From positions 1 through 64,000 of the forward strand of contig CAMSTW010000009.1 in NCBI GenBank assembly GCA_947063855.1: DNA of 64,000 bases, in the 5' to 3' direction. The position numbers and the translations under genes are program-made. Source of the DNA: an uncultured Dorea sp. (lineage in GTDB: Bacteria; Bacillota; Clostridia; Lachnospirales; Lachnospiraceae). Positions within the stretch are counted from its first letter, which is position 1, and each line of letters opens with the position of its first letter. The notes below the pieces were generated by a model. That model was given only the letters and a program-made list of their open reading frames with translations. It was not told where the DNA came from and searched no databases. Shown in pieces: positions 32,968-56,197 of this stretch.

Positions 32968-34026
32968 TCATGATTCCCGAAGCTTTACGGCAGAAGCCGC
33001 CTTCCTTCGGCGGTCCTCGTCAATCGCGGCGTAATGCTTCTTCGTGGTATTCACGTCCTTATGTCCCAGAACATCCGCTACAAGGTAGATATCTCCCGTC
33101 TCTTTATATAAGGAAGTACCGTAGGTGCTTCGAAGCTTATGAGGCGTTATCTTCTTGTTCGGCGTTACCTGGCGGGCATACTTCTTCACCATATTCTCTA
33201 CGGCCTGCACGCCCATACGGCGTCTCTGGGTTGATAAGAACAAAGCGTTCTCATGGCCGGGGAGGGGAGAAGTGTTCTTACGGATGCCTTCTACATAACC
33301 GGCAAGTGCGCCGGCAACCTCATCACCGAAATAAACTACCATCTGATTGCCTCCCTTGCGGGTCACCGTGATTCCATTATTCTTAAAATCCACATCATTA
33401 AGATCTAATCCCACGCACTCCGAGACACGAATCCCCGTACCCAGCAACAGTGTCAGGATTGCCAGATCCCGTTCTTTGGTCTTATTATAATAGGTAAGGG
33501 ATTGTCCGGATAACTGGCTGCCGCAATTCTCTACAAAATCAAGAAGTAATGCAACTTCATCCGTATCAAGCCTGATGATCGCCTTGTCATGAAGCTTGGG
33601 CATATCCACCAGTAAGGTAGGATTCTTGACGATAATCTGATGCTTATAGTAGTAATTATAGAAACTGCGAAGCGCCGACATCTTTCTGGCCAGTCCCTTT
33701 TCGCTGTTGGTGATCAATTCATCGTCCCGCTCATAGACCTTGAGATATTCCATATATTCCTCAATATCCACAGGCTCAAGCCGCTCAAGATCCTCAACTC
33801 TGAACTGCTCGATCGAATAGTTCTTATATACAGGGTTGTTCTCCATCAGGAAATGGAAAAAGATGCGTATGTCATATGCATAATTGATCCTTGTCCTGGC
33901 CGAGGACTTCGGTTCGATCGCCCGGAAATAATCCTTTGCGAATGGAGGTAAGGTCTTAAGTACCTCCCTAAGACGCATCGTCTGGTCAATGCGTGTCTGC
34001 TCATGATAGGTTCTTGCCTCGCTCAT
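32968..34026 (-). CDS. Site-specific tyrosine recombinase (XerS/XerC-like)
   Basis: LLGTGIRVSECVGLDLNDV, HKLRSTYGTSLY, LGHKDVNTTKKHYAAI catalytic motifs. Confidence 0.9.
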   Translation of the reverse strand: MSEARTYHEQTRIDQTMRLREVLKTLPPFAKDYFRAIEPKSSARTRINYAYDIRIFFHFLMENNPVYKNYSIEQFRVEDLERLEPVDIEEYMEYLKVYERDDELITNSEKGLARKMSALRSFYNYYYKHQIIVKNPTLLVDMPKLHDKAIIRLDTDEVALLLDFVENCGSQLSGQSLTYYNKTKERDLAILTLLLGTGIRVSECVGLDLNDVDFKNNGITVTRKGGNQMVVYFGDEVAGALAGYVEGIRKNTSPLPGHENALFLSTQRRRMGVQAVENMVKKYARQVTPNKKITPHKLRSTYGTSLYKETGDIYLVADVLGHKDVNTTKKHYAAIDEDRRRKAASAVKLRES

Positions 34027-34188: not shown

Positions 34189-34539
34189 TTATAGATCGTC
34201 GCATAACTCATAATAGGATATCGTCAGATATTGACCGGCCTGAATCCTGTTGGAATCCAAATCGTTGATCTCCCTCAGTTCATCTATGTAGTCATGGATG
34301 GACTCATAGTTATCATCCATATACCGGGCCGCAATGCTCCATAAGGAATCACCCGGCGCGACGGTGATACTGGTATAATACTTATGTGCGGCAGATTCCC
34401 CGTCATTATGGGCGTCAACAGAATCATCCGTTAATAAGACGCTGCATCCCAGTACTAAAATGCAGACAATCAATGTGAATATCACCCGGCAAACGGATAA
34501 TTGCTTCTTTCTTCTCCTGGCAGTATGCGGTCTGTTCAT
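34189..34539 (-). CDS. LysM-domain membrane protein, YneA-like (putative SOS cell-division inhibitor)
   Basis: N-terminal TM plus LysM (ITVAPGDSLWSIAARYMDDNYESIHDYIDELREIND); divergent from lexA; RBS AGGAGGGGGAGCC before ATG 34539; ORF track start 34668. Confidence 0.75.
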   Translation of the reverse strand: MNRPHTARRRKKQLSVCRVIFTLIVCILVLGCSVLLTDDSVDAHNDGESAAHKYYTSITVAPGDSLWSIAARYMDDNYESIHDYIDELREINDLDSNRIQAGQYLTISYYELCDDL

Positions 34540-34584
34540 GGCTCCCCCTCCTGTGCTTAAAAACTTGATCTGGTCTATACAGGC

Positions 34585-34700
34585 GAATATTCGTTCCGAA
34601 CATTCATTCCGAACAACTGTTTTTACATTATATAACTCGAACGATTGTTTGTCAATCATTTTTGCCATAAATTTCGAACATATTTTCTAAACATCTGTTT
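34585..34700. promoter_or_regulatory. Cluster of six LexA-box-like GAACNNNNGTTC sites
   Basis: GAATATTCGTTC 34585, GAACATTCATTC 34598, GAACAACTGTTT 34611, GAACGATTGTTT 34639, GAACATATTTTC 34676, AAACATCTGTTT 34689. Confidence 0.8.
34627..34655 (-). promoter_or_regulatory. Consensus sigma-A promoter for the LysM gene
   Basis: On minus strand TTGACA (34655-34650), 17-nt spacer, TATAAT (34632-34627). Confidence 0.85.
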
Positions 34701-34788: not shown

Positions 34789-35406
34789 ATGGGAAAAGGT
34801 AAGATAAGTGCAAAGCAGCTGGAGATATTAGAATATATAAAGTCACAGATATTAGAGAGAGGGTTCCCGCCTGCAGTTCGGGATATCTGCGAGGCAGTCC
34901 ATCTGAAGTCCACTTCCTCCGTCCACTCTCATCTTGAGACGCTTGAGAAGAATGGTTACATACGCCGCGACCCTACCAAGCCAAGGGCGATTGAGATTCT
35001 GGATGATTCTTTTAATTTTATGCGCCGTGAGATGGTGAATGTTCCGATTATCGGGCAGGTTGCCGCCGGAGAGCCGATACTGGCCGAACAGAATATAGAG
35101 AACTACTTCCCTGTTCCGATGGAATACATGCCCAATAACCAGACCTTTATACTCAGGGTGAGGGGGGAAAGTATGATCAATGCGGGAATTCTGGACGGTG
35201 ACATGGTTATCGTGGAGCAGCGCTCTACTGCCCGCAACGGTGAGATGGTTGTGGCTTTGATTGAAGACGGGGCTACGGTCAAGACCTTTTATAAGGAGGA
35301 TGGCGTGATACGGCTGCAGCCGGAGAACGATACGATGGATCCGATCATAGTGACGGATGTGCAGATTCTGGGTAAAGTAATCGGCGTCCTTCGATTTTTT
35401 TACTAG
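34789..35406 (+). CDS. lexA: LexA repressor
   Basis: N-terminal wHTH; VAAGEPILAEQN cleavage region; FILRVRGESMINAGILDGD. Confidence 0.97.
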   Translation: MGKGKISAKQLEILEYIKSQILERGFPPAVRDICEAVHLKSTSSVHSHLETLEKNGYIRRDPTKPRAIEILDDSFNFMRREMVNVPIIGQVAAGEPILAEQNIENYFPVPMEYMPNNQTFILRVRGESMINAGILDGDMVIVEQRSTARNGEMVVALIEDGATVKTFYKEDGVIRLQPENDTMDPIIVTDVQILGKVIGVLRFFY

Positions 35407-35447
35407 TTCTGGGTAAAGTAATCGGCGTCCTTCGATTTTTTAACTAG
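35366..35447. repeat. 41-bp tandem duplication of lexA 3' end (two copies)
   Basis: 35366-35406 and 35407-35447 identical at 40/41 positions. Confidence 0.92.
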
Positions 35448-35458
35448 TACACTAGCTA

Positions 35459-35686
35459 ATTATGGGCAGAATTACATCCCCCACAGTCACGGTAATAAAC
35501 TACACACATATCTGCATTGACTATATGCGTAGAAGAGAACTTGCAACCTTAACACGGGAAACAGATTCGCCGTGCACCAGAACGCAGACGTGAGGGTATT
35601 TTTGTAAATGCCTTTGTCCCGGATTCCGGGTCACCCGCCTCCAATGCCAAGGGAACATCTGTGAGGAATGTAATCCTGCCCATAAT
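35459..35686 (-). ncRNA. Candidate structured non-coding RNA of unassigned class (strand tentative)
   Basis: 28-bp closing stem (35459-35486 with 35659-35686) plus internal hairpins; most stem mismatches are G-U on minus but A-C on plus. Confidence 0.6.
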
Positions 35687-35771
35687 ATACTTTTTTCATG
35701 TATCCGGACTCTTATTCTATATACCTTCTGTATACCGTAAGCTATTCCTATATGCGGTCACTACGGATATT

Positions 35772-36125
35772 CTATAAGTCGTCCGGACTCTCGATCTTCT
35801 TACCGTCACTCCAGATACGTTCCAGATGATAGAACTCCCGGTTCTCCTGATCGAAGACATGAACAACCACGTCGCCATAATCAAGAAGCACCCAGTTTCC
35901 CGACTGCATGCCTTCCCGCTGGATCTGCGAGTGCCCGGCTCTTAGCATCTTCTCTTCTACATTGTCTACCAATGCCGTTACCTGGCTGTCACTGGTTCCA
36001 TTCGTGATGATGAAGTAATCTGCCAGCGGAGATATGCCCGAGATATCGATGATACAGATATTCTCGCCCTTCTTATCCTCCAGCGCGTGATACGCGATCT
36101 TCGCCATCTCCTTTACCTGATCCAT
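35772..36125 (-). CDS. rsfS: Ribosome silencing factor RsfS
   Basis: DISGISPLADYFIITNGTSDSQVTALVDNVEEKM; MQSGNWVLLDYGDVVVHVF. Confidence 0.95.
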   Translation of the reverse strand: MDQVKEMAKIAYHALEDKKGENICIIDISGISPLADYFIITNGTSDSQVTALVDNVEEKMLRAGHSQIQREGMQSGNWVLLDYGDVVVHVFDQENREFYHLERIWSDGKKIESPDDL

Positions 36126-54937: not shown

Positions 54938-56197
54938 CTATTCTGTGCTTTTACTGCTGGTATTCAGAAACTTCCTCTCACCGGTCAGCAGATTCACCAT
55001 AATGATCTCTCCGCTATTCTGTATATAGATCAGATTGCCTGCATAATATTCTTCTCCATATTTGATGTAGGCATCCAGATCCATCTCCAGATCCTTATGG
55101 ATCAGCTCTGTATTCTTCGCCTTCCTCCGGAAATCTCTTGCCAGAGAGATGGCGTCTCTGCGCCGCTCGTCCTCATATACGATGATGGTATTCTTCCTTG
55201 GATATACGATCCGGACCTTCTGGCGTATCAGCGCGTTCATCAGTTCGTCGACTACGATGGCAAATCCGATGGCCGGAGACTTCTTGCCGAACTTCTCGGT
55301 CAGATGGTCGTATCTTCCGCCCTTTACGATGGCGTCTCCTGTGCCGAAGGTGTAACACCGGAAGATAAGTCCGGAGTAGTACCCATAAGTACCACTCATG
55401 CTGAAGTCAAAAGTAAGAAACTTCTCTACTCCGTAGAGCTTCAAAGTTTCGTAGATTCTCTCAAGTCTCCGGATGGCTCTGACCCCTTTTGAATTGGGCG
55501 CAATGTTCTTGGCCTGCGCAAGGGTCGAAACACCGCCCACAAGATCGTTAAGAGCCGCAAACGCCTCCTTGGAACTTCTCTTTACCTGAATGCTCTCTAA
55601 GAATTCCTCCACACCATAAAAGTTACGGTTGTTGATCAGTTCACGCACCCGCTCCTCTGCCTCTTCATCCAGACAGGCGTCTTCTACAAGGCTCTGGAGG
55701 AAATCTACATTGCCGATACTGAGCTGGAATTCCTTAAGTCCGATGGTCAGCAAAGACTCTATCACAAGGGCAAGCATCTCCGCGTCGGCTTCCACGGAGC
55801 CGTCGCCTATGAACTCCGCCCCCATCTGCGTCGTCTCCCTGAGACGGCCCTGATAATTCGAATGATTGATGAATGTGTTGCCGGTATAGCAAAGTCTTAC
55901 AGGAAGCTTCTCGTCCTTAAGCAGCGTGGCCGATACCCTGGCAATCGACGGCGTGATATCAGGACGCAGCGCAAGAGTATTCCCGTCCTTGTCAAAGAAC
56001 CTGTACAGATCCCTGGACGGGATCGTTCCGATCTCCTTGCGGAATACATCAAAATACTCGAAGGTCGGCGGCTGGATGTCATGGTATCCGTACAGGTGGA
56101 ACACCTTCCTAAGACTCTCCTCCAATGCCAGCTTCTTCCCGCATTCTACATTATATATATCTCTGACTCCTTCCGGCGTATGTAATACTCGTTTCAT
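54938..56197 (-). CDS. hisZ: ATP phosphoribosyltransferase regulatory subunit
   Basis: HisRS-like: HTPEGVRDIYNVECGKKLALEESLRKVF; LALRPDITPSIARV; immediately upstream of hisG. Confidence 0.93.
   Translation of the reverse strand: MKRVLHTPEGVRDIYNVECGKKLALEESLRKVFHLYGYHDIQPPTFEYFDVFRKEIGTIPSRDLYRFFDKDGNTLALRPDITPSIARVSATLLKDEKLPVRLCYTGNTFINHSNYQGRLRETTQMGAEFIGDGSVEADAEMLALVIESLLTIGLKEFQLSIGNVDFLQSLVEDACLDEEAEERVRELINNRNFYGVEEFLESIQVKRSSKEAFAALNDLVGGVSTLAQAKNIAPNSKGVRAIRRLERIYETLKLYGVEKFLTFDFSMSGTYGYYSGLIFRCYTFGTGDAIVKGGRYDHLTEKFGKKSPAIGFAIVVDELMNALIRQKVRIVYPRKNTIIVYEDERRRDAISLARDFRRKAKNTELIHKDLEMDLDAYIKYGEEYYAGNLIYIQNSGEIIMVNLLTGERKFLNTSSKSTE

Follow-up and report, generated by a model that had tools for sequence, protein, structure and literature searches.

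Among the dispersed palindromic sequences of bacteria, the ERIC/IRU sequences of enterobacteria are about 127 bp long and conserved in sequence throughout. The CGTC repeats have stems of 8-9 bp and loops of 4-5 nt and are recorded from five phyla, Bacillota not being among them (PMC3733652). A word search of open-licence papers on palindromic or miniature elements and on structured RNAs in Lachnospiraceae, which a family described under another name could escape, returned no family like the one reported here. We have analysed a stretch of 64,000 nucleotides from an uncultured Dorea sp. (hereafter the window) and conclude, with a probability of roughly three in four, that a large hairpin between its lexA and rsfS genes represents an old copy, since diverged, of a palindromic DNA element dispersed in the Lachnospiraceae, non-autonomous and of the MITE or ERIC kind.

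The convergent genes lexA (34789..35406, plus strand) and rsfS (35772..36125, minus strand) enclose a 228 nt imperfect palindrome (35459..35686), the minus strand of which lies downstream of rsfS and which its fold, its arms and its matches to the models R1 and R2 (see below) mark as a probable diverged relative of a dispersed family; the orientation of the family model corresponds to the minus strand of the window. Its closing stem consists of two 28 nt arms, the 5′ arm at 35659..35686 (minus strand), equivalent to family stem P1, and the 3′ arm at 35459..35486 (minus strand), which pair at 25 of 28 positions (89% complementarity) with 172 nt between them, as stated in the original prediction of a large structured RNA candidate between lexA and rsfS. 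The small internal hairpins named beforehand and the asymmetry of mismatches, which read as G-U on the minus and A-C on the plus strand, are likewise all present within 35459-35686, as is the T-run past 35690, and the expectation that no plausible reading frame covers the region was borne out, none of more than 45 aa being found. No Rfam covariance model matched the window at the gathering threshold or the element region at E≤10, so that the curated models of raiA and 6S, the classes that had been put forward for elimination by this route, are excluded. The minus strand of the 228 nt element folds at −103.1 kcal/mol (z −8.5; 0 of 200 shuffles as good) and, when flanks are included in the shuffle comparison, gives z −9.1 against −5.0 for the plus strand. 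When the closing stem is removed, the interior folds modestly (minus strand z −2.7, 1 of 200 shuffles; plus strand z −0.6), so that the stem supplies most of the folding signal.

A commonplace inverted repeat of the terminator type, lying between convergent genes and without relation to the dispersed family, would account for the convergent position, for the hairpin that relatives have at this place and for the T-run just past the element (35691..35696, plus strand), which could be a terminator tail for lexA. We consider this explanation very unlikely, however, given the 228 nt length with its 172 nt interior, the identity of the arms to those of a family member elsewhere and the colinearity of the core (both described below), and the absence of any detectable canonical intrinsic terminator (GC-rich stem, loop of 3-8 nt, T-run directly after) in 35200-36000.

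The lexA-rsfS locus does not carry the element as a conserved feature, since same-genus intergenic regions have no counterpart of it and blastn found no further copy in the window genome or its relatives. The rsfS gene is present in 11 of 12 same-genus genomes (window genome included), and 80 lexA loci were collected; among loci containing both genes, the convergent intergenic region was either about 40-160 bp, mostly with a short hairpin, or longer with a reading frame, and wherever both genes stood in one locus nothing like the element was found. Blastn-type matches in relatives and in 397 Lachnospiraceae genomes were scattered and short, the best being to clpX coding sequence, and were taken as chance, as was one group of short matches (query 81-109) that apparently lay mostly in coding regions.

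Several other features of the locus were observed. The 3′ end of lexA carries a tandem 41 bp duplication (35366..35447, plus strand; 98% identity, spacing 41) that stops 11 bp short of the element; lexA still ends in the first of the two copies, and the duplication is possibly insertion-related, possibly the product of slippage. A LysM-like gene (34189-34668) points away from lexA and is separated from it by a gap with several GAAC-type sites, an arrangement that by eye resembles the yneA-lexA SOS pair, and two genes before lexA lies what appears by eye to be a tyrosine recombinase-like gene (32968-34026, minus strand). Cumulative G-C skew peaks at about 32200, and close by the predominant gene orientation changes from plus to minus, a pattern like that around a replication terminus; a consensus search around this position gave no convincing dif site. 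In Dorea sp. 5-2 the lexA-rsfS intergenic region (L038, 3113-3268) holds a different long hairpin (CATCTGCCGTGTTGGATTTTC...), perhaps belonging to another repeat family. A retron msr-msd was rejected as an identity for the window element, as the neighbouring genes are lexA and rsfS and no reverse transcriptase is adjacent.

Relatives of the element were found with three covariance models. R1, built from the window element alone, matched one other place among 98 relatives (51 bits, E 2e-11). This place, L126, belongs to a different species of the genus and is flanked by genes for a histidine kinase and an ABC transporter. Matches of R1 to the opposite strand reached 36-38 bits out of the stem alone, so that the score of L126 overstates the homology of its core; direct sequence comparison showed arms identical at 23 of 28 positions and a common centre, AAGGCATTTA...CCCTCA.G.CTG.GTT. 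The two-sequence model R2, which like R1 was built from the window copy, gave matches at E≤0.05 in 16 of 397 Lachnospiraceae genomes, mostly strong and in several genomes more than one, and in the window genome returned 18 rows corresponding to 17 distinct places, the window element (on both strands) and one weak partial match included. R3, a model of 33 copies from which the window copy and L126 were left out, matched in 35 of the 397 genomes (about one in eleven), representing 32 genera, and in many of these all 8 scored candidates matched. Across 250 genomes of the phylum R3 had matches in the window genome and in a second Lachnospiraceae genome; the sole match outside the Lachnospiraceae (L209) was weak, lies inside a long reading frame and was taken as chance. 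The 250 phylum genomes thus gave no credible match beyond the Lachnospiraceae. Searches of phage and plasmid records with the window copy and with a typical copy gave no match, nor did Rfam models match typical copies.

Each copy is laid out as one long hairpin, in which outer arms are followed by a GGGACG / CTGTGYACTGG internal loop, a pair of arms of 25-30 bp and free sequence, and a core of short helices split by the conserved asymmetric loops AACAYTCC / CGYTAARR, CTAA / TGGAT and AACTNC / NCGTA. A typical copy measures about 175 nt between main-arm ends, or about 290 nt including the outer arms as seen in the window genome, and copies range from about 170 to 228 nt. A subtype of 222/216 nt (L170, L171, L172 and L175) has an extra hairpin in the same internal loop, and three of its four copies are nearly identical and perhaps recent. 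The window copy has an extra stretch (35487..35546, minus strand) that holds a small hairpin (35500-35532) and is missing from typical copies; the insertion in the four subtype copies is a different one at about the same place.

Copies occupy intergenic sites in mostly unrelated contexts and show no orientation bias, the upstream gene being in the same or opposite orientation in 23 and 21 cases and the downstream gene in 24 and 20, on gene calls made by a simple ORF heuristic that flagged two copies inside a frame. The original prediction is supported as to a large, structured and non-coding feature; a reading as an RNA class tied to lexA-rsfS is not, the family being dispersed over unrelated sites in both orientations. 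With up to 3 mismatches, the outer-arm pattern occurs at 82 sites in the window genome, and those inspected include deletion derivatives; core-deleted partial copies and single ends are common among them. Some matches were set aside: three arm-pattern matches with 3 mismatches (L127, L128 and L131) have no partner arm, and the outer-arm pattern matches at 56085 and 63405 in the window, with neither partner arm nor core, were taken as chance. A well-preserved copy (L160) lies just past the window end at contig position 65120-65292, followed by outer-arm matches at 65317, 65393, 65545 and 65621. Close inverted neighbour copies occur in several genomes. At L208 two copies (172-392 and 1446-1666), 97% identical, inverted and 1053 nt apart, stand upstream of a release factor 2-like gene; they were rejected as the ends of an autonomous element, there being only short frames between them. 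The family has the inverted ends, the lack of a gene and the multiple copies expected of a MITE; inspection by eye and of recurrent neighbours found no transposase, autonomous parent or consistent target-site duplication.

The window copy is linked to this family by the arms it shares with L126 and by a weak colinearity of the cores. Its diverged core (35547..35639, minus strand), reading GGTGA ... AAGGCATTTA ... CCCTCA ... AATCT ... TTAAGG, is colinear with those of L126 and of L151, a copy in the same genome (local score 32 against a shuffled best of 22.7), and in a comparison with the whole family the score of 32 obtained for the interior against L151 was reached by 3 of 300 shuffles. The similarity of its interior to L126 exceeded 300 of 300 shuffles in local and 298 of 300 in global alignment. 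L126 is an undoubted member, scoring 121.5 bits with R3 despite being outside its training set; the window element, in contrast, went undetected by R3 even unfiltered, the best score elsewhere in the stretch being 6.2 bits, and for this reason we term it a diverged relative and not a typical member. In its flanks GGGACG is absent, and on the 3′ side TAGTGTACTAG stands at the position expected for CTGTGCACTGG, which it resembles. From these sequence comparisons, homology of the window copy to the family appears very likely.

The arms are wholly different between genera, yet almost perfectly paired: over 43 copies they comprise 1186 Watson-Crick, 16 G-T, 22 A-C and 41 other pairs. In the core, 30 of 33 pairs have two-sided changes and 96.4% of cells are paired (0 of 500 shuffles); cells with two-sided changes number 171 against a shuffle mean of 37, with slid controls far below, although the alignment that was scored had also supplied the structure, which is somewhat favoured by this. 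These conserved asymmetric loops amid freely varying, covarying helices are what would be expected were the whole family a mobile structured RNA or folded single-stranded DNA, the loops being recognised by a protein and the pairing kept by selection. This explanation agrees with our preferred one on dispersal and differs from it on the cause of the kept pairing. In a transcript under selection, G-U pairs are expected to be much commoner than A-C mismatches. The counts of G-T and A-C were 15 and 20 in core pairs and 16 and 22 in arms (combined p 0.24); G-T is no commoner than A-C, which speaks against selection acting on a transcript and makes the pairing look maintained in DNA, although a folded DNA strand would still be compatible. 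Covariation, named in the original prediction as a criterion, was found in the dispersed family, but neither strand showed the preference for G-U that a selected transcript should have. No dedicated protein gene was found near family copies, and we regard selection on a family-wide RNA or folded single strand as unlikely.

Two sets of copies give direct hints of correction of the arms at the DNA level. In L168 one arm is of a TTTTCAG type and the other of a TTGGGAG type, whereas each sister copy has the same type on its two arms. The second set consists of copies that lie upstream of gpsA in two species and are apparently orthologous; the blocks in which they differ are altered on both arms. 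The mixed arms of L168 could alternatively have arisen by gene conversion between copies. Template switching is a documented route to changes that rewrite both arms, and is argued to be able to create and maintain perfect stems (PMC8794818).

The window copy differs from the rest of the family in one respect. Its minus-strand helices contain 16 G-U pairs and no one-by-one A-C mismatches, a count taken on the minimum-energy structure and hence biased towards the folded strand, and its G + T content in the family's orientation is above the family average. The excess of G-U is real but peculiar to this copy, the others being balanced; it suggests either that a minus-strand RNA is under constraint or that mutation is strand-biased, in addition to the bias of reading a minimum-energy fold, and it counts against the DNA explanation, which needs neither such constraint nor such mutation. 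It is, along with the much better folding of the minus strand, the evidence for a functional structured minus-strand RNA within the 3′ part of the yqeK-rsfS operon, which might be a family copy that the host has put to work. We find such an RNA distinctly unlikely, as it has no counterpart at the locus in readable same-genus genomes, shows no promoter or terminator signature beyond chance and draws on a G-U count biased towards its own strand.

Our preferred explanation for the window feature is the diverged DNA element. It was directly observed that the copies of the family are dispersed and multiple, lie between genes in both orientations, occur sporadically, include deletion derivatives and inverted pairs, and have arms that covary without favouring G-U. 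In the proposed sequence of events, a copy would have entered the intergenic space between the convergent lexA and rsfS genes. Copies would spread at the DNA level by means of a protein provided in trans. The arms would stay complementary because one is copied onto the other, either by hairpin conversion or by template switching during replication, whether or not a folded single strand is also selected for. The effect at lexA-rsfS would probably be passive, a longer spacer between convergent genes, with a 3′-end hairpin possible on either transcript. A bolder version, which we hold to be quite improbable, is that the family moves throughout the Lachnospiraceae in the form of a folded single strand of DNA, recognition depending on the conserved loops and the arms being rewritten at each hairpin copying, and that the lexA copy has since been recruited as a minus-strand RNA.

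Knowledge of this family of gut-bacterial repeats, found neither in Rfam nor in the searched literature, would help in reading the intergenic regions of these genomes. By the standard covariation count the family resembles a structured RNA, yet its G-T/A-C balance suggests that the pairing is maintained at the DNA level. Should this be so, the family would be a clear natural case for template switching making and maintaining perfect stems (PMC8794818), and a warning against calling RNAs in dispersed repeats by covariation alone.

The family shares features with several known systems. Like raiA and 6S RNAs it came to attention as a large structured non-coding candidate in Clostridia; unlike them, it is unmatched in Rfam, for the window element at E≤10 and for typical copies altogether. 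Bacterial MITEs are similarly short, non-autonomous and multicopy, with inverted ends and deletion derivatives; the Lachnospiraceae family differs in that neither a parent insertion sequence nor a consistent target-site duplication was found and in conserving a long structured core, not its ends alone. The REP-type CGTC- and GTAG-tagged palindromes (PMC3733652) and REPINs (PMC3116915) likewise consist of palindromes scattered over the genome, carry an asymmetric motif at one foot and include inverted pairs. Identity with REP sequences, palindromes of 20-40 bp with a tetranucleotide tag, was rejected on the size of the copies and their arms, and in contrast to CGTC repeats the family has stems of 25-30 bp and a core of more than 100 nt. 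With ERIC/IRU it has in common an imperfect palindrome, intergenic and dispersed sites, either orientation and no gene of its own, and it is set apart from them by its host group and by arms that are hypervariable but complementary.
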